From assembly GCF_009768975.1 (NCBI RefSeq), contig NZ_CP035733.1, forward strand, positions 3,330,001-3,394,000: a stretch of DNA of 64,000 bases, given 5' to 3'. This DNA is from Sphingorhabdus lacus. GTDB taxonomy: Bacteria; Pseudomonadota; Alphaproteobacteria; Sphingomonadales; Sphingomonadaceae. The notes beneath the pieces were generated by a model, which saw only the letters and a list, made by a program, of their open reading frames with translations, made no database searches and had not been told where the DNA came from. The position numbers were made by a program, and so were the translations under genes. The first letter of the stretch is position 1, and each line of letters begins with the position of its first letter. Below are positions 4,411 through 19,302 of this stretch, in pieces.

Positions 4411-6230
4411 TTACGCGCTCCTATTTTCCTCGGTCCGAATACAAGCAAAACATTACCCGAAATTTGCCCGAATTTGTCATAGCCCGAATTGACGATCAGA
4501 TAGCCTCCCGCAACTACGGGGCCCGCGGAGTCAATCGCTCCGCCATAGCCTTTCACGCCATTGACCGTCGGCCAGTCGCGACGCGTATCAGTGGTCCACA
4601 ATATGCGGCCATCCTCGCTGGCATACGCACGCAAGATTCCGTTCAGGGCACCGGCGAAAACTATGCCATCGGTTAATGTCACGCCTGCCGACAAGGCCGT
4701 CCGGCATTCATGCTTGTCTTCCTTGCAAACATAAGGTTCGATCTTGCTCCACAAGGGCTTGCCGGTTGCAATATCGAAAGCGTGCATCCCCTGTCGCGAC
4801 GGCCCGACCGCGCCCTTGTTCCCCGGCGTATCGGCAATCCCTGCGAACAATGTCGTATCGTCCGCTGCCATGCCCCAGTGGACACCGCCGTTAAATCCGC
4901 CCATTCCTGCGCGCTGCTGCCAAAGCAGCTTGCCGCCTCTATCTGGGTCTAGCGCATAGATCATCCCCGATTTCTGTCCCGCGAGAATGATGTCGCGGCC
5001 ATATTCGGCCTTTACCAAAATCGGCGGTGCGCCGAAATCGAGGTCCGGCCCGTCTTCCTTGGGACAGTTGATATTGTTGTTATATGCTTGCCGCCCGCAT
5101 GAAGCATTCCAAGCGTCGCCCTGTAACATCTGCTGTACCCAATGGATGCGGCCGGTGCCGAGATCAAGCGCGATGATGGCGTCGCTCTTGTCGTTGGCAG
5201 GAGACGAATAATTTTCGCCGGTGCCGATATAGAGCAGCCCGCGCTTGGCATCGACAGTCGGCGAAGACCAAACAGGCGCGCCCGAAGGACCAAAATTCGA
5301 TACGCCGTTTTTGTTCTTGCCGGTTGCTTGGGGCGCATCGGTCGTGTGCATTCGCCAAAGCGTATCGCCATCCGTGGCATCGAGTGCGGTTACGCCGCCT
5401 CGGAACGTGCAGCAGCCGTAATTGCCGTCCATTGCGCTGACAACCTCGGCCGATGACATTGGGACATAAAGCCTGCCGCCATACAGAGTGGGCGAACCGG
5501 TTATAGTGCCCGCCGGATGATCCTTAACCGACTCCTTCCAGACCAACTTGCCGCTTGTCGCATTGACCGCGTAAACATTGGCGTTGAAGTCTCCGAAATA
5601 CAGATTGCCGTCCTTGCCCAATGTTGGCGCGCTTCGCACTTCGCTGTCGGCATCGAATGTCCACCATATGCAGCCGCTGTGCGTATCGAGTGCATAGACA
5701 CGTCCGTCCTGACTACCAGTGAAGATAGCATTTTCAGTGACGGCAGGCTGCGAACGTGCGCGGGCAGCATTGGGAAAGGCAAACGCCCATTTCAATTCGA
5801 GATTGCCGATATTTTTGGGCGTCAGCCCGCCGAGTGACGCCGGCTGATAACGGCGGTTGTCGGTACCATTGCCCCAGCGGTTCCACAGCGACCTGCCGAG
5901 CGCCAAGTTGCCTTTGCACAATTGCCCTGCAACCTTGCTGCTTTTGGCACCGAGATACTCCGCAACCAGCGTGCGTTCCTCAGGTGAAATAGATTTGCCC
6001 TGTTCGCGCATCAATCCGGTTTCGAGCGCAGCAAGAATTGTAGCAGGCGTGCGTGTTTCGAGGGCCGTGCGGGTAGGGGCACCGCCTTCACCTGCGTCAT
6101 GGCACGCCGCGCAATTGCCTTGGTATAACGCCTCGGCCTTTGCTTTGTCCGCGTCGGTCAAGCCTCTATTGCCGGAGGAGCAGCCTGCCAGCAGTGCAAT
6201 TGCCAAAAGCGCGCCTAGGCGTTTGCTCAT
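4407..6230 (-). CDS. Lipid-anchored cytochrome c / PQQ beta-propeller alcohol dehydrogenase (PVA-dehydrogenase-like)
   Basis: A 607-residue quinohemoprotein. The N-terminus is a lipoprotein signal (lipobox LLAGC, Cys17). A cytochrome c domain with CAACH (residues 40-44) follows, then an eight-bladed PQQ propeller rich in WTF/LWR/LVW blade motifs. The adjacent Cys pair in NYGCCTFRGG corresponds to the vicinal disulfide of quinoprotein alcohol dehydrogenases. The order cytochrome c then propeller resembles polyvinyl-alcohol dehydrogenases; most other quinohemoproteins carry cytochrome at the C-terminus. It should oxidise an alcohol in the periplasm and pass electrons through haem c to the respiratory chain. 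ATG 6230 was chosen over an ATG 27 bp upstream because GGAGAGG sits correctly before it. Confidence 0.88.
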   Translation of the reverse strand: MSKRLGALLAIALLAGCSSGNRGLTDADKAKAEALYQGNCAACHDAGEGGAPTRTALETRTPATILAALETGLMREQGKSISPEERTLVAEYLGAKSSKVAGQLCKGNLALGRSLWNRWGNGTDNRRYQPASLGGLTPKNIGNLELKWAFAFPNAARARSQPAVTENAIFTGSQDGRVYALDTHSGCIWWTFDADSEVRSAPTLGKDGNLYFGDFNANVYAVNATSGKLVWKESVKDHPAGTITGSPTLYGGRLYVPMSSAEVVSAMDGNYGCCTFRGGVTALDATDGDTLWRMHTTDAPQATGKNKNGVSNFGPSGAPVWSSPTVDAKRGLLYIGTGENYSSPANDKSDAIIALDLGTGRIHWVQQMLQGDAWNASCGRQAYNNNINCPKEDGPDLDFGAPPILVKAEYGRDIILAGQKSGMIYALDPDRGGKLLWQQRAGMGGFNGGVHWGMAADDTTLFAGIADTPGNKGAVGPSRQGMHAFDIATGKPLWSKIEPYVCKEDKHECRTALSAGVTLTDGIVFAGALNGILRAYASEDGRILWTTDTRRDWPTVNGVKGYGGAIDSAGPVVAGGYLIVNSGYDKFGQISGNVLLVFGPRKIGARK

Positions 6231-11008: not shown

Positions 11009-13135
11009 CTAAAGCTCCAATATTAGCCGTGCGGGCCCATCGCCATTTTCGGCGGCGGGAACGGCGCAACAGATTAACGCCTCATCGCTTTCCGTCTGGA
11101 AAGCAGGTTGTTCGGGATAGGTCACCGCGCCTGCGAGGATCTTGGTACGGCAGGTGCCGCAGCTTCCGCCCCGGCAGCTGAATTCCGGTGTCAGTCCGCG
11201 CGCTTCCGCGAGGTCCAGCAAGCTCCCGATCTCCGGTGCCCAACGTGCTTCCTTGCCAGAGGCCGCAAAGGCCACTGCGACCGGCTTTGTTGCCGCTGGG
11301 GCCAATTGGACGCCGGGCGTGGTTTCGACCTGGCGTTTCAGTGACGCGGGTCCGAACGCTTCGGCATGGATCCGATGGTCGGCGACGTTCAGTCCGCGCA
11401 ACCCATTGTAAATCGCTTGCATGAACGGCGGAGGACCGCACATCAGAAAGTCATAATCGTCGAAACCAAGCGCTGCGCGTAGCAAGTCCATGTCGACCCG
11501 GCCGAGGACCTCAAAATCCACTCCCTGCTCCGCGCCCTCTCCATCTTCCAGCAAACGGATGACGCGCACCGCACCGCCAGCGCGTGCCAGGAGGGAACCG
11601 AGTTCATCGTCAAAGGCACGCTCCGCTTTGTTGCGTGCGGCATAGAAAAAGATTGTGGGCCGGATATGGCGCGTGCGTAAACCTTCGTAAACGATATGGC
11701 GGAGCATCGCCAACATCGGCGTGATGCCGACGCCTGCGGCCATGAGCACCGCGGGACGGCGCTCACCAGCATCGATGGTGAAATTGCCGGCGGGAGGACG
11801 CGCATCGATGATGCTTCCGACCGCCACCTGGTCGTGCAGATAGCTGGAGACCAGACCTTCCTTCTTCACGCTGATCCGATAGGTTCCATCAGAAGGGGCC
11901 GAGGAAAGCGTGTAGGTGCGAATGACTGCCGGTGCATCAGGATCGGGTTGGACGCGGATGGGCAAATGTTGACCGGCCAGATTGGCTATCAACCCGGCAT
12001 CGTCGACGGGTTCCAGATAGAAGGAGCGGATCACGCTGCTCTCATCGACGATCTTGCTCACCTTCAGCGGACGCCATGTCGATCCCTGCTCGGCTGCCTT
12101 GCGGCGTTGCGCGGCTTGATCCCAATCGCCGGTCATCAGCGAATTTGGCGACCAATCCAGAAAGTCGAAGCGCAAGGGGAATGCGGCCTTACGTCGCACG
12201 ATCTTTTGCGGCGTAAAAGTCCACAGCCGCTCCGCACCCTGAAAGGCCGCGATGTCGGGAGACTCCAAAATGACATCTGCGCTGCCCGTCATGTGCAACA
12301 TATCGCCATTGCTGAAGTCGACAAAGACCAGTCCAGCGCGCGGGTTGCGGAGAAAATTGCCCAATGTGTTGAAATGCAGATTTCCGGCAAAGTCGGGAAT
12401 AGTGAGCACACCATCGTCGCCGATGCGCACAAAGCCTGGCTTACCTCCACGGTGGGAAGCATCGACCTGACGGCGGCCATCTTCCAGATCGATATAGGAA
12501 GCGACGAAAAATGTGTCGGCGGCTGAAATCGCGGCACGCGCATCATCATCTAAAGCGGTTAGCTGTTCAGTCGCTGGCGTTGTTTGGTCTTCCGGCGAAA
12601 GCGCGTGCCAGTTGCGGGTCTGGATATATTGCGGGCAATTGCCGAAGCTATGTTCGACTTCGACTGTAAATCCACCTTCTGAAACTGCGCCAATGGCCCC
12701 GTTCATCCGGTTGCGGCGGCGGGAGTGCAGTTCAATCCCCAACAGGCCGATGGCATCGCCTACTTTTCGATCCTTGATGGCTGGATCGCTTGGATCATAT
12801 GGCGCATTTATGGTGAGTTGCCGGGGGTCGGGGGATTGCATGAAGCCCGGCGCGCCTGCCAACACTGTCGCCCAGACATCGCCTTGGCTATCAACGGTGC
12901 CAGCGACGACAAAAGGCAATTGTTCGAAAAAGTCGCGATGCTGTTCGGGCATATGATCGCGAATGACACGGCGGCCAAATTGCTCCATCCGATCGGCAAC
13001 GCCCAGTTTGCTCTGCAGTTCGACTTCGCCGCTGTGAAAGGGCGAACCGGTCGGGATTTCGTCATTGCTGTCCATGGCATCTCTCGTTTCTATTGAAGTG
13101 GAAGTTTCCGTCAGACTTGCGGCTGGTTCAGCCAT
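11009..13135 (-). CDS. PNPOx-like / ferredoxin reductase / 2Fe-2S ferredoxin fusion protein
   Basis: A three-part oxidoreductase of 708 residues. Residues about 40-350 form a pyridoxamine-phosphate-oxidase-like split-barrel (FMN-binding fold). Residues about 355-600 form a ferredoxin-NADP reductase-type module with RTYTLSS (flavin) and GVGITPMLAML (nucleotide). The C-terminus is a plant-type 2Fe-2S ferredoxin with CRGGSCGTC near residue 654 and a later CC. Electrons should run from NAD(P)H through flavin to the cluster. The substrate is unknown; related fusions sit beside glutathione transferases. The first ATG overlaps the upstream DJ-1 gene by 25 bp; ATG 13075 (688 residues) is an alternative. 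Confidence 0.88.
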   Translation of the reverse strand: MAEPAASLTETSTSIETRDAMDSNDEIPTGSPFHSGEVELQSKLGVADRMEQFGRRVIRDHMPEQHRDFFEQLPFVVAGTVDSQGDVWATVLAGAPGFMQSPDPRQLTINAPYDPSDPAIKDRKVGDAIGLLGIELHSRRRNRMNGAIGAVSEGGFTVEVEHSFGNCPQYIQTRNWHALSPEDQTTPATEQLTALDDDARAAISAADTFFVASYIDLEDGRRQVDASHRGGKPGFVRIGDDGVLTIPDFAGNLHFNTLGNFLRNPRAGLVFVDFSNGDMLHMTGSADVILESPDIAAFQGAERLWTFTPQKIVRRKAAFPLRFDFLDWSPNSLMTGDWDQAAQRRKAAEQGSTWRPLKVSKIVDESSVIRSFYLEPVDDAGLIANLAGQHLPIRVQPDPDAPAVIRTYTLSSAPSDGTYRISVKKEGLVSSYLHDQVAVGSIIDARPPAGNFTIDAGERRPAVLMAAGVGITPMLAMLRHIVYEGLRTRHIRPTIFFYAARNKAERAFDDELGSLLARAGGAVRVIRLLEDGEGAEQGVDFEVLGRVDMDLLRAALGFDDYDFLMCGPPPFMQAIYNGLRGLNVADHRIHAEAFGPASLKRQVETTPGVQLAPAATKPVAVAFAASGKEARWAPEIGSLLDLAEARGLTPEFSCRGGSCGTCRTKILAGAVTYPEQPAFQTESDEALICCAVPAAENGDGPARLILEL

Positions 13136-13734
13136 TCTTGATCGAGTTCGGGCACGCGCATTTTGGCACGGATGTGTGCGGCATTTTGTGGCGAGGTGAG
13201 GTTGGCGAGTAAGCGCAAAGCCACCTCGACTGAGGTCCCGGGTCCGGTTGAGCTGATCAAACGGCCATCTTCGACGACGGCTTGATCCACAAATAGGGCA
13301 CCATATTGCTCAAGCTGGTCTTTTCTCTTGCCGCCTACCTGATGATAGATGGTCGCTCTGCGCCCCGCGATAATTCCAGCAGCGCCTAGTGCCAACGACG
13401 CCACGCATACCGAAGCAATGCCGCGGTCCCGGGCGTTAAAGTGCCGGATAACAGCGAGGAAGGGCTCAGACAGGGCTTCATCATAAAATCCTGCCCGGGC
13501 AAAGCCGCCGGGAATGGCGAGCGCGTCGAAGTCATTCAGGTCAAGCTCTGAAACCTGGGCTTGCGGCATGACTCGAAGTCCGAAAGTTGAACGCAAGACA
13601 GGTTTGAAACTAGCGGAGACCAGTTCGATCGGCTCGTTTCCTTCAAGGGCAGCCCATCCAAATACGTCCGTGAAACCTGCTGCTTCGAGCGGCTCAAACC
13701 CATCGGCCAGCAAAAGCAGAACCTTCTTGGTCAT
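13111..13734 (-). CDS. DJ-1/PfpI family protein (copy 2)
   Basis: A 207-residue paralogue of the protein at 8237-8860, with the same nucleophile elbow (SVCVAS, Cys110) and shared stretches such as FDALAIPGGF, EALSEPFL and STGPGT. ATG 13734 gives MTKKVLLLLADGFE, aligned exactly with copy 1; a start 45 bp upstream adds residues that copy 1 lacks. It lies between a glutathione transferase and the PNPOx-ferredoxin fusion in the same direction. It probably repairs or removes reactive carbonyl or other electrophilic products, but this is inference from the family. Confidence 0.9.
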   Translation of the reverse strand: MTKKVLLLLADGFEPLEAAGFTDVFGWAALEGNEPIELVSASFKPVLRSTFGLRVMPQAQVSELDLNDFDALAIPGGFARAGFYDEALSEPFLAVIRHFNARDRGIASVCVASLALGAAGIIAGRRATIYHQVGGKRKDQLEQYGALFVDQAVVEDGRLISSTGPGTSVEVALRLLANLTSPQNAAHIRAKMRVPELDQEWLNQPQV

Positions 13735-13835
13735 TATATGGTCACTCCGAAAAAACAGGCTGCGCCTTTTTATGGGCACTTCATGAGATCGTCCGGACGC
13801 TTCTCCGTTGGGAAAAGACGTCCGGGCGATGGGTG

Positions 13836-14456
13836 TCAGGCTGCTGCGGCCAGCCCCACTGGGGTCTGCACGAATGGAACAAAATTAGGCAAAGCCTCGA
13901 TGTTCTTCAGCCAGGCATCAACATTGGCATAGGCCGCCAAGTCGACATTGCCTTCGGGCGCGCGGGCGATGTAGCTGTACAGCGCAACATCGGCGATCGT
14001 GGGGTGGTCGCCGCCGATGATCCATTTTTTCGTCGCAAGTTCATCGTCGATATTTTTCAGAACGGCATGTGCGCGTCCGATGACTTCTTCGGCATTAAAG
14101 CCTGCGCCAAATACGGTGATCAAACGGGCGGCGGCAGGACCGAAGGCGATCTGGCCGGCAGCGACCGAAAGCCAGCGCTGTATCGCAGCTGCACCGTCAG
14201 GATCGCTTGGCAACCATTCGGTCAAGCCACGCTTTTTGGCGATATAGATCAGGATCGATGCGGAATCGGCAATGATTGTGCCGTCGTCGTCCAGCACAGG
14301 CACCTGGCCAAAGCGATTAAGCGCCAGAAATTCAGGTGCCTTATGTGCACCTTTGGCAAGGTCGACTTCGACCAGTTCGAACGGGGTTTGTGTCAGCGAA
14401 AGAAACAGCCGTGCACGGTGGGCATGGCCAGACAAAGGATGATAGTAAAGTTTCAT
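13836..14456 (-). CDS. Glutathione S-transferase
   Basis: A 206-residue glutathione S-transferase of the bacterial beta-like type. The N-terminal domain ([19 protein letters not shown]) has a Ser in the active-site loop. [20 protein letters not shown] provides the cis-Pro and the ADS glutathione-binding motif. The helical domain begins near residue 85 and contains the hydrophobic-core motif [13 protein letters not shown] 14456 is preferred because GGAG is spaced 8 bp before it; an ATG 21 bp upstream is less well placed. It diverges from the LysR gene across a 192-bp gap that holds the operator-like repeat. Confidence 0.92.
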
Positions 14457-14568
14457 GTGATAAGCTCCATAATGCATCTGCCACAGTGGATTAGGGGGAC
14501 TGGGCCTCTTGCACTGCCTTTATGGGCCTGCACTTTTGCGAACAGAACGGAGATAAAAGTCAAAGGAC

Positions 14569-14587
14569 TATTCCATTTTTCGGAATA
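14569..14587. promoter_or_regulatory. Candidate LysR operator (TATTCC-N7-GGAATA)
   Basis: Perfect 6-bp inverted repeat with a 7-bp spacer in the gap between the divergent GST and LysR genes. It is 62 bp before the LysR start. The size and the T-N11-A type symmetry suit a LysR dimer, and a near copy occurs at 10949-10967. Confidence 0.55.
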
Positions 14588-14648
14588 TTCTTGCTCCTGT
14601 AACGAAGCAGCCCCATAATTCCGGGGCGACAGTCAAAGGAATCAGAAC

Positions 14649-15545
14649 ATGGCAAAGCTTGAGGCGATGCACACATTCGTCAAAGTGGCCGAGACCAGCA
14701 GCTTTGCTGAAGCCGCGCGGCAGTTGCATATGAGTCCTCCCGCGGTGACACGCGCAGTATCCGCGCTTGAAGAGCAAATCGGCACGAGATTGTTTACCCG
14801 CACCACGCGGGTTGTTCGGTTGACCGAAGCCGGGAACCGCTATTTTGAAGATTGCCGCAAGATATTAGCGGATGTGGAAGAGGCCGAGGCTGCGGCGTCG
14901 GGGTCCTATGCGCGTCCGACCGGTGTCCTGCATGTGACGGCATCGGTGCTTTTCGGACAGCAATTTCTTCTGCCCATTTTGACCGAATTTCTTGGTGAGA
15001 ATCCGGACGTCACGGTCCGCTCCCTTTTCGTTGATCGGGTCGTGAACCTGGTTGATGAAGGCATCGACGTGGCCATCCGCATCGGACATTTGCCCGATTC
15101 CAGCCAGAGCGCGGTACGGGTCGGTAAGGTGCGGCAGGTCGTCTGCGGCGCACCTTCCTATTTTGCGGACCATGGCATTCCACAACAACCTGCAGACCTC
15201 GCCCGGCATCGCATGATTGCAGGGACGAGCTCCTTCTCCTCGCTCGACTGGTTCTTTGGGCAGGACCAGAAACATAAGGTGCACATCACCCCGAGACTAT
15301 TCTGCAACACCTATGACAGTGTGATCCGCGCCACTCTGGAAGGCTGGGGCCTATCGCGGGTGCTATCCTACCAGATAGGCGAGCATCTTGTGGAAGGCCG
15401 CTTGCAGACCGTACTCTCCGACTTTGAACAGGACCCGCTGCCAATCCATATTGTGCACCCAGAGGGCCGGCGTGCATCCGCCAAGGTGCGCGCGTTCATC
15501 GATCTCGCCGTTGACCGCCTGCGCGCCAACCGATTGATAAACTAG
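14649..15545 (+). CDS. LysR family transcriptional regulator
   Basis: A 298-residue LysR-type regulator. The winged helix-turn-helix is at about residues 5-65 (SSFAEAARQLHMSPPAVTRAVSALE), followed by a linker helix and a periplasmic-binding-protein-like effector domain. FLGENPDVTVRSLFVDRVVNLVDEGIDVAIR is typical of the CrgA/AaeR-like subgroup. It is transcribed away from the GST, DJ-1 and ferredoxin-fusion genes, the standard arrangement for a LysR activator of its neighbour. The inverted repeats at 14569 and 10949 are its likely binding sites. Confidence 0.93.
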   Translation: MAKLEAMHTFVKVAETSSFAEAARQLHMSPPAVTRAVSALEEQIGTRLFTRTTRVVRLTEAGNRYFEDCRKILADVEEAEAAASGSYARPTGVLHVTASVLFGQQFLLPILTEFLGENPDVTVRSLFVDRVVNLVDEGIDVAIRIGHLPDSSQSAVRVGKVRQVVCGAPSYFADHGIPQQPADLARHRMIAGTSSFSSLDWFFGQDQKHKVHITPRLFCNTYDSVIRATLEGWGLSRVLSYQIGEHLVEGRLQTVLSDFEQDPLPIHIVHPEGRRASAKVRAFIDLAVDRLRANRLIN

Positions 15546-15552
15546 GGACGCA

Positions 15553-16026
15553 TCAGGATTGGTTGGAAGGCGCCAATTTTGTTTGCCGGTCGAGGAGCGC
15601 ATCCAGAGACAGCTTGCCCGGACCATAGGCCATGATGCCCAAGGCAAGGGCGAACCAGCCGAAATGGGTCGAGAGAAACGCGTCGGGATAGACAAATATC
15701 TGGATGGTGAGTGTCATAACAAACAATCCCAAAGCCGATAGCCGTGTAGCCAGGCCCAAGACCAGCATGATGGGCAGCAGATGTTCGGCGTAGGTAGCGA
15801 GATAGGCCGCAATTTCGGGGTCGACGAACGGCAAGCGATATTCTTCTTCAAAAAGGAAGAAGGTGTTTTCGGACACGGTCAGCAGCCCTTCGACTTTGGT
15901 CCGTGCAGAGCTCCAGAAGATTCCGGCAAGCCCACCACGCATGGCAAGCTGCACAACGGCCTGGGGGATTTGGGACATGATTTTTGCAGGTGCAGAAAGT
16001 GCACCGGATAGGGTCGAGTTCGTCAC
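15553..16026 (-). CDS. bufD: DoxX family membrane protein (BufD-like)
   Basis: A 157-residue four-helix inner-membrane protein of the DoxX family, with EHLLPIMLVLGLATRLSALG as a typical central helix. It is the last gene of the bufferin-type operon, where DoxX partners are common but their exact role is unclear. The start is GTG 16026. AAGGAG lies 7 bp before it, and the GTG overlaps the stop codon of the DUF2063 gene (GTGA). An internal ATG at 15978 has no ribosome site. It ends 7 bp from the convergent LysR gene. Confidence 0.88.
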   Translation of the reverse strand: MTNSTLSGALSAPAKIMSQIPQAVVQLAMRGGLAGIFWSSARTKVEGLLTVSENTFFLFEEEYRLPFVDPEIAAYLATYAEHLLPIMLVLGLATRLSALGLFVMTLTIQIFVYPDAFLSTHFGWFALALGIMAYGPGKLSLDALLDRQTKLAPSNQS

Positions 16027-16754
16027 TTCATTTCTCCTTCAATAGGCGTGTGTGTGGGGACAATAATTCCGGCAATGGCCAGGTTGATAAAACGGGCAAT
16101 CAAGGTTTCGGCGGACGGATCGTCCGGATATTCCGAAATTAGGGCGGCAAAAGTTTGCGATTGGGCGAAGTGCCGTAACAACACTTCGTCATCGGCATGC
16201 GCCAACATCTCTGTCACCAGATCGTCCTGTCGCCAGATAATCGCTGTTTCCGTCGCGTCGGGTATCGGCGGCGCTGCATCGGGTTCCAACTGGGAGCGCC
16301 AGATCGACAGTGCAGGATTTTCGGAAACGACAACGGTCACCGATGGATGAAGCATTGCTGGAATATCCAGTGCCGCAATGGCCGAAGCTTCGCTTTCGAT
16401 CCGGAAGCTATCCGTATCAGCGGCATGATAGGCCTGAACGCGTGCAAACTCGATCCGCGCCACGTCGGCCAAATAGGGATAATCGCTTAGCGGGTTGAAC
16501 GTGCTCAAGAACTCGGCAAAATCATGCCCATATTCGGTCATGATCGGCGAGCGCGGAGGATGGCGCTCGACGTATAGGAGAGTAAGCGCGGAAAAATAGT
16601 CTTCCCCAACCAGCTTCTCGACTGCGGGAAAGGTTGTGCGCAATGCATTGCGCAGCGTAATCCGAAAATTGTTTCGATAGACATTGAAGCGTCCATGCTC
16701 GTCCACCGCGGGCAAATCCGTTTCGAGCAACGCGTGAGCAAATGACGCCTGCAT
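16023..16754 (-). CDS. bufC: DUF2063 bufferin-maturation partner (BufC-like)
   Basis: A 243-residue cytoplasmic protein of the DUF2063 family, annotated in databases as putative DNA-binding but known as BufC/HvfC, the partner that presents the precursor peptide to the MNIO enzyme. Characteristic segments are FNVYRNNF, FPAVEKLVGEDYF, VERHPPRSPIMTEYG and YLADVARIEFARVQAYHAAD. ATG 16754 overlaps the stop of the DUF692 gene (ATGA); an upstream in-frame ATG at 16772 would overlap more deeply and is less likely. Translational coupling to its enzyme fits formation of a complex. Confidence 0.9.
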   Translation of the reverse strand: MQASFAHALLETDLPAVDEHGRFNVYRNNFRITLRNALRTTFPAVEKLVGEDYFSALTLLYVERHPPRSPIMTEYGHDFAEFLSTFNPLSDYPYLADVARIEFARVQAYHAADTDSFRIESEASAIAALDIPAMLHPSVTVVVSENPALSIWRSQLEPDAAPPIPDATETAIIWRQDDLVTEMLAHADDEVLLRHFAQSQTFAALISEYPDDPSAETLIARFINLAIAGIIVPTHTPIEGEMK

Positions 16755-17650
16755 CACAACACCGCCGCGCACGCCGCACGCCCTATAATCTGCCGGACCT
16801 GATCGGTTTCCTGCAAGAGCGCCGACAAGGGGGGTATGTCATTATCCCGTTCTACGAGGACGGGGCGTATGCCGCCGCGGCTAATGACATGTTCGAGAAG
16901 TTCGAAAACCGGTTCGCCGACGGGATCACCATGGCTGTCGATCAGCAATGTCTGTCCATCGGCGTCCTGAATGGCCTCATGCCCTGCCACGTGAATTTCG
17001 CCGACCAGGTCCAGCGCAATGTGCGAGAGCCAGTCCTGCGCAGACCAATCATGATTATGGCATGAAACATAAAGATTGTTCACATCCAGCAGCAGTCCGC
17101 AACCTGTGCTTTGGGCAATTTGCTGCAGGAATTCGGCCTCGTGCCAACTGCTTGCCGAAAACGCGACATAAGTTGACGGATTTTCGAGGAGCATTCGGAC
17201 ACCCAGAAAATCCTGGGCTTCGTTGATGTTGGCAATGACGCGATTGAGAGTGGGCGTATCATAAACGACGGGCAAAAGGTCGTTGAAATAAACGCCGTCA
17301 TGGGACGACCATGCCAAATGCTCCGAAAAGCTGGCGGGACTAGTGCGGTCGATTAACCTGCGAAGTCGTTGCAGGTGCTCGCGATCAAGTCGCTCTTTGC
17401 CGCCGATCGAGAGCCCCACGCCATGGATAGATAGCGGCCATGCCTCGGCAATCCTGTCCAACAGGATCAGGTTAGGGCCGCCGGCGCTCATAAAATTTTC
17501 GGCATGGATCTCGACGAAATCCACAAGCGATGGATCGGCCAAAAGCGCTTCGCAATGCGCGCGCTTAAGGCCGATCCCCACACCCGAGGGCAAACCGCCG
17601 GGCCCCGTTGGGGGGATGGGCGCAGACAAGGTAGGATGCGCCCCGGACAT
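16754..17650 (-). CDS. bufB: MNIO (DUF692) multinuclear iron oxidase, BufB-like
   Basis: A 298-residue TIM-barrel enzyme of the MNIO (formerly DUF692) family. These bind two or three iron ions and oxidise cysteines of peptide substrates; in bufferin maturation they form thiooxazole groups. Expected metal-binding segments are present: VEIHAENFM, SIHGVGLSIG, FSEHLAWS, LLDVNNLYV followed by CHNHDW, and EIHVAGHE with DSHGDPV. The start ATG 17650 is 3 bp from the stop of the precursor gene. With the Cys-containing precursor and DUF2063 partner adjacent, a role in maturing a metal-binding peptide is well founded, though the exact product is inference. Confidence 0.93.
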   Translation of the reverse strand: MSGAHPTLSAPIPPTGPGGLPSGVGIGLKRAHCEALLADPSLVDFVEIHAENFMSAGGPNLILLDRIAEAWPLSIHGVGLSIGGKERLDREHLQRLRRLIDRTSPASFSEHLAWSSHDGVYFNDLLPVVYDTPTLNRVIANINEAQDFLGVRMLLENPSTYVAFSASSWHEAEFLQQIAQSTGCGLLLDVNNLYVSCHNHDWSAQDWLSHIALDLVGEIHVAGHEAIQDADGQTLLIDSHGDPVGEPVFELLEHVISRGGIRPVLVERDNDIPPLSALLQETDQVRQIIGRAACAAVL

Positions 17651-17653
17651 GGA

Positions 17654-17950
17654 TTAGCGCCGCACTTCTTTGAATTCACTCAGCTGGCCGCGGCCAGTAG
17701 GCGAGGTCTTGGACGGCATGGTGAGGCATGTGCCCTTGGGCACCAATGTCCAGGCATTGCCCTGATAGTCGCGCTTTGAGGTGCCTGCGCAGGAGGTGCC
17801 TGGGCCAGCAGCACAATCATTGTGTCCGGCAAGCGAGATGCCAAAGCATTTTTCCTGTGGCGGACGCTTTGCAGCTGCCGGACTGGGTGAAAGGCTGACG
17901 AGGGCGGTGGCTACAGCGCCCGCGATAAATGCGGAACGGGAGAGGTTCAT
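17654..17950 (-). CDS. bufA: Bufferin precursor (DUF2282, BufA1-like)
   Basis: A 98-residue ribosomally made precursor. It has an N-terminal signal peptide (to about residue 27, cleavage after PAAA), then the bufferin core with four cysteines at 35, 46, 54 and 75 ([31 protein letters not shown]). In characterised bufferins the two middle cysteines become thiooxazoles that bind copper and the outer pair forms a disulfide; the four-Cys pattern here fits. The charged tail is short. It is the first gene of the buf operon and lies 72 bp downstream of the YHS gene, with a hairpin between them. Confidence 0.9.
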
Positions 17951-17985
17951 TTTGAAAATTCCTTCTTCTGGGGTGGACGGTCCCG

Positions 17986-18015
17986 AACGGCGGCGAACAA
18001 GCGTCCGCCGCCGTT
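17986..18015 (-). promoter_or_regulatory. Hairpin between the YHS gene and bufA
   Basis: Perfect 10-bp inverted repeat (AACGGCGGCG at 17986-17995 and its complement at 18006-18015) with a 10-nt loop. It lacks a T-run, so it may set the ratio of the two transcripts rather than stop transcription fully. Confidence 0.55.
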
Positions 18016-18022
18016 GGAGGGA

Positions 18023-18523
18023 TCAGTTCAGCGATTCAGGGGTCTTGCCCTTGATCCCAGGCCAATATTCCTTGGCCTTCTCGAGATTACCGGGAATGTC
18101 GCGCTGCCAGGCAACTGCGACGTCTGCATTGACGTTCAGGTACAGTTTGCCATCAACGATTTTCCAGACAGCAGGGTCACCGTCGAGCTTCTTTTCAAGC
18201 GCAACGCCCATGGCGCAGAAGCCACCAAATTGGGGCGCGAAAGCGGCGGGATTGGCCTTGAACTTCTTCAAGTTTTCAGCGCTGGCGAAAAAGTAGCTCG
18301 CACCCTTATATTTGAAAGTCAGCGTCGGGTTGCCCTTGGTGGGTGCGCCAACCGTGAAATAGGCGACCGGGTCGTAGCCGTGCATTGCGATGCCCTGTTC
18401 ATCGGTGTTCACGGCCGACGTGGAAGTAGGGACCACTGCAAATGCAGGGCTGGACGGGATAGAAGTAGATGCGACGAGCAGGCCAAGAGCGACAAGCACA
18501 GCGCGAGTGGTACGATTAGTCAT
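18023..18523 (-). CDS. Exported YHS-domain protein
   Basis: A 166-residue periplasmic protein. A signal peptide ends near residue 29 (SSPAFA). A YHS domain follows (IAMHGYDPVAYFTVGAP, LTFKYKGASYFFASAENLKKF, GGFCAMGVALEKK). YHS domains bind metals, and the Cys/Met in FCAMG is at the usual ligand position. It lies directly upstream of the bufferin operon in the same direction, which suggests a role in copper or other metal handling. GGAG upstream of ATG 18523 supports the start. Confidence 0.88.
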   Translation of the reverse strand: MTNRTTRAVLVALGLLVASTSIPSSPAFAVVPTSTSAVNTDEQGIAMHGYDPVAYFTVGAPTKGNPTLTFKYKGASYFFASAENLKKFKANPAAFAPQFGGFCAMGVALEKKLDGDPAVWKIVDGKLYLNVNADVAVAWQRDIPGNLEKAKEYWPGIKGKTPESLN

Positions 18524-18975
18524 GATAGTGTCTCCAACTTTGGCCGTCGCCGGGTGGGACGGTCATGATGTTTCCCCGGTCTTTCCGGGTGAACCACTAT
18601 CTAGGGCGAAACGTCGTGCGCATGAATATGCGGAATAGGTAATGGATTGATGCGTTAAGTGGAATAATATTGGTTCAATCAATTGGCACCGGCAGACGCG
18701 TATCCGTCTAAAGGATGAACGGTACTCTGCCGAAATCTGCCTTGCCCTTCTCGCACAGGAATGTCGGATCGTTGCCGTTACAAATTATAACCCGTTAGCT
18801 GGCGCCAAGCATTGCCAGCATTGCAGCCGTAACGCCCAATTTGCCAGTCAAGCGGCGGCTAATAGCGTACGATTGACCACTTCTGGCGTATGACGTGCTG
18901 TTCTGCCGGAAATTTTAATATAACTATTTTGGGCGAATAATAAGTTCCGCTCCTTCATTTGAAATAAAATTGCGC
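18524..18975. other. Gene-free stretch with promoter region of the YHS/buf genes
   Basis: About 450 bp with no convincing gene. The part next to 18523 must hold the YHS/buf promoter. Two GGAATA half-sites (18632-18637 and 18661-18666), resembling the arms of the LysR repeats, are present without a clear partner arm. On the minus strand near 18800-18870 a short frame ends in LGVTAAMLAMLGAS, which looks like the tail of a lost membrane protein. Confidence 0.4.
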
Positions 18976-19072
18976 GTGTCCGGAGATTATAATTGTCATA
19001 TGGCAATTTGGGCTTCAGATTTTTCGGCAGAAATCCGTACGGCGGTCGGAGATTTTAATTGTCTCGATACAG
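18976..19072 (+). repeat. Repeat element A (related to 34310-34394)
   Basis: This 97-bp element contains two internal direct repeats (GTCCGGAGATTATAATTGTC at 18978 and a near copy at 19045), separated by a segment with TTTTTCGGCAGAAATCC. The same order of motifs (CGGAGATT, TTTTCGGC.AAATCC, GAGATTAAATTGTC.TGATAC) occurs at 34310-34394 in the same orientation. It looks like a recombinase recognition site or element end. No recombinase gene lies in the window. Confidence 0.6.
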
Positions 19073-19302
19073 TCGGCGGACACGAACTGTCACGCTTGCC
19101 GATCTCCAAACTACCTGTGCTGCTTGTCCACGGTTCGGCGAAGCCGATTGTGCCTTTCGCCGCGTTGCATGTCGCAAAAGCGGAACTAGAACATCTTGGC
19201 ATTGACGTGACGACGCATATTTCATCCGGTGTGGGACACAGCGTCGATCCCGTCGGCCTCCGCATGGGCGGAGAATTTGTCGCTAAGGCGCTGACCAACT
19301 GA
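19073..19302 (+). pseudogene. Truncated carboxylesterase/phospholipase C-terminal fragment
   Basis: The frame encodes only the last 75 or so residues of an alpha/beta-hydrolase of the phospholipase/carboxylesterase type (LPVLLVHGSAKPIVPFAALH with the acid region, then GVGHSVDP with the catalytic His). The nucleophile half is missing. The frame continues backwards into repeat element A, so the gene was cut at that element. No functional esterase can be made. Confidence 0.65.

Follow-up and report, generated by a model that had tools for sequence, protein, structure and literature searches.

The closest described counterpart of the locus considered here is the Buf1 bufferin operon of Caulobacter vibrioides (CC3254-CC3257; PMC3511200, PMC12452194), in which genes for a DUF2282 precursor, an MNIO enzyme, a DUF2063 partner and a DoxX protein follow one another in this order. 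According to the published account, BufB and BufC modify BufA, the modified cysteines being the central two of the precursor, and BufA is exported and buffers copper (PMC12452194). Bufferin operons are described there as a four-gene core; tandem precursor genes are known, and additional genes are reported in “extremely low proportions,” with unrelated genes admitted to the survey only if at most 10 bp separated them from a relevant one (PMC12452194). Another parallel is provided by the captophorin/oxazolin HvfABCX operons, which likewise encode an MNIO, a DUF2063 partner, and a DoxX-type protein.

We analysed a window of 64,000 nucleotides from Sphingorhabdus lacus (positions 3330001-3394000 of the 3.46-Mb genome, one contig), where the same four genes are preceded by a gene for a YHS protein (Table 1).

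Table 1. Features in and around the YHS-bufABCD cassette (positions within the window)
Feature	Position	Strand	Details
YHS protein	18023..18523	-	166 aa; signal about 1-29 (by eye); single Cys103, Lys112
Hairpin, YHS stop to bufA	17986..18015	-	stem of 13 pairs, loop of 4 nt, not followed by a T run
bufA, Buf1/DUF2282 precursor	17654..17950	-	98 aa; Cys 35, 46, 54, 75
bufB, MNIO bufferin maturase	16754..17650	-	Pfam and NCBIfam profiles
bufC, DUF2063 partner	16023..about 16757	-	open frame extends back to 16772
doxX, DoxX membrane protein	15553..16026	-	DoxX profile
Block upstream of YHS	18600..18670	-	letters CAATCCATT and CCTA common to 5/5 aligned loci
LysR gene, convergent to cassette	14649..15545	+	Pfam

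An earlier note on this DNA had placed the five genes in the order YHS, bufA, bufB, bufC, doxX, and both order and place hold, with matching coordinates and all genes on the minus strand. YHS and bufA are separated by 72 nt and bufA and bufB by 3 nt. Where the note had described ATGA and GTGA overlaps, the GTGA is present at the bufC-doxX junction, but the bufB-bufC junction reads TGATG if bufC starts at ATG or GTGA if it starts at GTG. The four-cysteine precursor with a signal peptide described in the note is likewise recovered (84.6 bits to the Pfam DUF2282 model; the signal peptides of BufA and the YHS protein were judged by eye), as is the bufferin-type operon as a whole: BufB scores 331.7 bits with MbnB_TglH_ChrH and 350.7 bits with NF050167 (MNIO_BufB; cut-off 310), and BufC (DUF2063, 90.7 bits) and DoxX (54 bits) exceed their Pfam cut-offs. 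With a four-cysteine DUF2282 precursor, a bufferin-type MNIO, a DUF2063 partner and DoxX, the last four genes of the cassette are an ordinary Buf1 operon; what is new is the YHS gene. Relative to the Caulobacter operon, the window adds this gene in front and a hairpin between it and bufA. It differs from HvfABCX in that its precursor is of the DUF2282 type rather than one with EGKCG repeats, and the HvfB, HvfC, and HvfX models score below cut-off. The same five genes, at 36-74% identity, are found in two further drawn loci (L065 and L066) and in remoter genomes, and this recurrence argues that their order is not due to chance. The conserved block upstream of YHS might be a promoter or regulator site.

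The surroundings of the cassette deserve brief mention. The region 11009-15545 holds genes for the LysR regulator, a GST, and DJ-1/PfpI-like and reductase-like proteins (LysR, GST, and CMD being assigned by Pfam, the other two by eye), and looks like an electrophile/oxidant stress cluster; the matching region of L063 has a CMD gene as well. The LysR gene also adjoins the cassette in L063, L065, and L066 (by eye). Upstream of YHS, a short plus-strand ORF (18970-19302) resembles, by eye, an alpha/beta hydrolase C-terminus and is possibly a gene remnant.

The YHS-bufABCD linkage, which the earlier note had seen in this stretch, recurs well beyond it. We examined 337 alphaproteobacterial genomes, 119 of which have DUF2282. 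With adjacency taken from printed coordinates, at least 12 of them carry a YHS gene immediately before bufA and on its strand; these span seven family codes (f1, f41 x3, f51, f82 x3, f105, f123 x2, f155); about 0.0075 linkages within 500 bp would be expected by chance across the 53 genomes that have both. The two families also co-occur, DUF2282 being present in 53/102 genomes with YHS versus 66/235 without (p 4e-5, with kinship left in). A scan of 149 genomes of the family found DUF2282 in 46, YHS in 21, and both in 15, with adjacency only in the window genome and one other (G097). A phylum-wide scan of 299 genomes, overlapping the class set (DUF2282 in 63, YHS in 62), found linkage in the window genome and in G486, the only case outside the class, where the order is YHS-thioredoxin-bufABCD. 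The thioredoxin there could be explained by the reductant that HvfBC requires in vitro, partly to hold the substrate cysteines reduced (PMC13419390). The block recurs in two named Sphingorhabdus genomes, where BufB is 93-94% identical, and the MAG PA4 is also linked. A Thalassobaculum from a hydrothermal plume carries YHS-DUF2282-DUF692-DUF2063-DoxX-sigma70-NrsF on a mobilizable plasmid (L175, NZ_CP139716.1).

Among the drawn loci, with L065 and L152 counted once as a single contig, the complete five-gene order is present in 13 distinct ones; L143 has YHS-bufA-doxX without bufBC. Looser arrangements occur too, with YHS at 1.4 kb (L148) and 3.4 kb (L149) from bufA on the opposite strand and at 4.4 kb on the same strand (L150). 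Because bacteria of scattered lineages have the gene at this same place, it probably does belong to some bufferin sets, as a component not described before. It is dispensable for bufferins, since only about 1 in 10 of the DUF2282-bearing genomes of the class (12 or more out of 119) have it in front, as does a single genome outside the class in the phylum scan. The gap between YHS and bufA (27-200 nt in 16 drawn loci; 33 nt on the Thalassobaculum plasmid) is such that a YHS partner would escape a survey limited to 10 bp, as the published one is described (PMC12452194).

One might ask whether the linkage reflects shared regulation only, with co-induction as the reason why the gene of an independent envelope-stress YHS protein leads the operon. 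Such an explanation, which we regard as rather unlikely, would fit the scattered distribution of the cassette, with linked and unlinked labels changing 7 times on the BufB tree (at least 3 forced, versus 15.4 in shuffles), so that linked loci are more scattered there, and with YHS relatives of the same type occurring alone elsewhere. Against it stand the fixed order and strand, YHS preceding bufA in 14/14 directly linked distinct loci, and the clustering of the linked YHS proteins on their own tree. In that tree of 76 rows, 16/16 linked copies fall in one 26-row part along with 10 unlinked ones (branch support 81/93, which is moderate and below the starred level), and the labels change 4 times, at least 3 of them forced, versus 14.7 in shuffles. 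Divergence is correlated as well, with Mantel r values over the 16 cassettes of 0.77 for YHS-BufB, 0.78 for YHS-BufA, and 0.86 for BufA-BufB. From the label changes and the correlated distances it follows that the genes of the cassette for the most part evolve together, yet with more than one gain or loss. The earlier picture of a single unit that includes YHS is thus backed by recurrent position, order, and strand and by divergence parallel to that of BufB and BufA, and the five genes would presumably be co-transcribed.

The window cassette also differs from the Caulobacter operon in having no sigmaF-type motif nearby. The motif GTAACC-N16-CGAA, described for Caulobacter sigmaF (PMC3511200), has no match within two mismatches on either strand between 11888 and 27481 of the window, and in this respect the cassette does not fit the Caulobacter sigmaF regulon. 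The same genome holds a second bufferin locus (L151, G000:C1:2669000-2682000) that shares bufB, bufC, doxX, and a DUF2282 bufA with the window cassette but differs in having a Buf2-like six-cysteine precursor (5577-5861) before bufB, a convergent doxX-bufA pair, and two exact copies of the motif; no YHS gene was found at this locus. A further copy lies near an NrsF gene at C1:636526. Across distinct bufA loci, the motif with at most one mismatch accompanies 0/15 linked and 34/74 unlinked ones (p 3.5e-4; about 1 in shuffles), a contrast that is in part kinship. The Thalassobaculum plasmid cassette has its own sigma/NrsF pair, yet no GTAACC-N16-CGAA before YHS.

The hairpin before bufA pointed out in the earlier note is present (minimum free energy of the 72-nt gap, -31.9 kcal/mol; z -3.6). 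In the Sphingorhabdus trio, L064 has two stem pairs as G-U, which keep pairing, and L063 loses one outer pair; inverted repeats were seen by eye both after YHS and before bufA in L172. More widely, z is below -2 in 10/16 drawn YHS-bufA gaps, the hairpin sequences varying among lineages, and 4/16 gaps fold about like their own shuffles (z -1.2 to 1.4). In the 70 nt past the YHS stop, z falls below -2 in 8/15 linked versus 18/68 unlinked loci (p 0.03), with median z of -2.8 and -0.7, respectively. The hairpin is real, but its strength exceeds that found after other YHS genes only modestly. The proposal that it sets a fixed ratio of YHS protein to bufferin is a weak possibility, given this difference between linked and unlinked loci and the four gaps that fold about as their shuffles do. 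As no T run follows it in the window, a role in processing or stabilising would be likelier than termination.

The YHS protein itself scores 33.7 bits with the Pfam YHS model and, over its whole length, 146.9 bits with NCBIfam NF041384, well above the cut-off of 70. Together with Cys103 at the Cys/Sec site, this makes it a member of that (seleno)protein family, the cysteine sitting where the selenoprotein form is described as having a GxU motif (PMC13188914). Compared with the family at large, linked copies differ by Lys112 and, in most cases, by C-A-[MFY]-G at the cysteine. In a comparison of 77 distinct proteins (16 linked, 61 unlinked), Cys103 is present in 16/16 linked and 60/61 unlinked copies, and Lys112 in 16/16 linked and 9/61 unlinked copies, those nine all lying in the 26-row tree part; L148, in the same part, lacks it. 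Both residues are also found in L172 and L175. With a profile of 21 relatives (16 linked and 5 unlinked), linked copies of the class rank near the top, as expected from the make-up of the profile, and among the next loci Lys112 is seen in 14 copies that are not directly linked.

Copper binding by a YHS domain has a precedent in the Mycobacterium phlei adenylyl cyclase, whose specific activation by Cu(II) has been ascribed to its YHS domain, with D178, C181, C204, and C208 as proposed ligands (PMC4626032). This precedent, the recurrent linkage with a copper-buffer operon and the CueR-like regulator adjoining one linked copy (L138) make it conceivable, though fairly unlikely in our view, that YHS binds copper as a chaperone or as a second buffer and hands metal to bufferin. 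Matched by spacing rather than by alignment, however, the ligands proposed in that account correspond to D51, A54, A80, and N84 of the window protein, leaving a single cysteine. By this mapping the classical YHS/TRASH site of one Asp and three Cys is incomplete, three of the four places being replaced, and a metal site by family resemblance is not supported. With one of four proposed ligands kept in linked YHS proteins, a copper site by homology is unsupported. An AlphaFold model (mean pLDDT 80.7, with blocks of 89-98 across residues 51-160) matched no PDB entry at E 0.001 or better. By sequence profile, residues ~54-99 match YHS repeats in solved structures of cilia chains, which carry the labels adenylate kinase 9 and CFAP276; neither search found a solved structure that accounts for the C-terminal part with Cys103.

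We also considered the YHS protein as a second substrate of BufBC, with Cys103 converted to a thiooxazole prior to export. It is Sec-exported by eye and encoded right before the MNIO unit, its C-A-x-G resembles the C-A-A-G of BufA, and tandem precursor genes are on record (PMC12452194). Yet relatives located apart from bufferin genes have C-A-x-G too, C-A-F-A takes its place in two linked copies, and we saw by eye no signal-peptide motif common to YHS and BufA, the bufferin leader being described as a Sec signal (PMC13419390). We hold this reading to be very improbable.

The neighbours of this type of YHS gene offer further hints. One linked copy (L172) is accompanied by thioredoxin, AhpC, and likely AhpF genes, and L138 by a cation-efflux gene and a MerR regulator whose best match is CueR (116.7 bits; cut-off 147.4). 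AraC regulators with a Cupin_6 domain adjoin two linked copies (L140 and L172) and make up 6 of the 50 neighbour ORFs of the 14 not directly linked Lys112 loci (six loci, by eye); around 56 unlinked loci they account for 3 of the 149 neighbouring ORFs, and those three belong, by eye, to L050, L051, and L062, all with Lys112. RclR was the best NCBIfam match for 6/6 of the AraC proteins tested, at 76-127 bits, far below the NF040475 cut-off of 400, and they are not assigned to RclR. The E. coli RclR, which drives the Cu(II) reductase RclA, is described as being activated by HOCl via Cys21 and Cys89 (PMC7464077); the L172 regulator has cysteines at 24 and 87. On named plasmids, YHS stands beside AraC and grxC or near DsbD and DsbA, and on others nothing similar is adjacent. 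The 25 commonest of the 93 neighbour families of the 56 unlinked loci include none of thioredoxin type; YceI (5) and HMGL (5) lead, and CMD is found twice (149 ORFs). The YceI-like genes are thus joint commonest Pfam neighbours of the unlinked loci L033-L106. We treat the RclR-like and redox neighbours as no more than a lead.

Considering the linkage and the Cys/Lys pair along with the selenocysteine form of the family and the neighbouring redox-type genes, we propose, at roughly even odds (about 0.5), that this Buf1 operon is headed by an accessory YHS gene, whose product is most likely a single-thiol accessory on the oxidising side of copper stress. BufB and BufC would turn the two central cysteines of BufA into thiooxazoles in the cytoplasm, as published for Caulobacter Buf1; a Sec signal would take BufA to the periplasm, where it would bind excess copper, with DoxX as a putative membrane helper. 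The YHS protein would be exported alongside, and its Cys103 and Lys112 might serve as a thiol sink, a switch, or a hand-over partner of bufferin, rather than as a classical YHS/TRASH metal site. In favour of the single-thiol accessory we count the class-wide linkage, the co-occurrence of YHS with DUF2282, the YHS Mantel values, the Cys103/Lys112 pattern, and the thioredoxin, AhpC, CueR-like, and RclR-like neighbours. Against it, most bufferin sets do without the YHS gene; L148, with YHS 1.4 kb from bufA, lacks Lys112; no solved structure accounts for the part with Cys103; the window cassette has LysR beside it, not AraC; the RclR-like scores are low; the Cys/Lys pair is also present in relatives distant from bufferin genes; and thioredoxin-type families are absent among the commonest unlinked neighbours. 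More speculatively still, and with little probability attached, YHS-bufABCD could be an unreported recurrent cassette that links copper buffering with oxidant defence, in which a periplasmic Cys103-Lys112 thiol switch or sink shields or reloads bufferin, under oxidant-sensing regulators in some hosts. The pair would then resemble that of NemR, in which HOCl is described as forming a Cys106-Lys175 bond (PMC7464077).

Literature searches turned up no paper on a link between YHS and bufferins, and the term YHS is absent from the main texts of PMC12452194, PMC12668002, PMC13097082, PMC12538549, PMC8224329, and PMC13419390. The linkage provides a genetic handle on the NF041384 (seleno)protein family, to which the literature found assigns no function, and the YHS protein is possibly a second half of copper protection.
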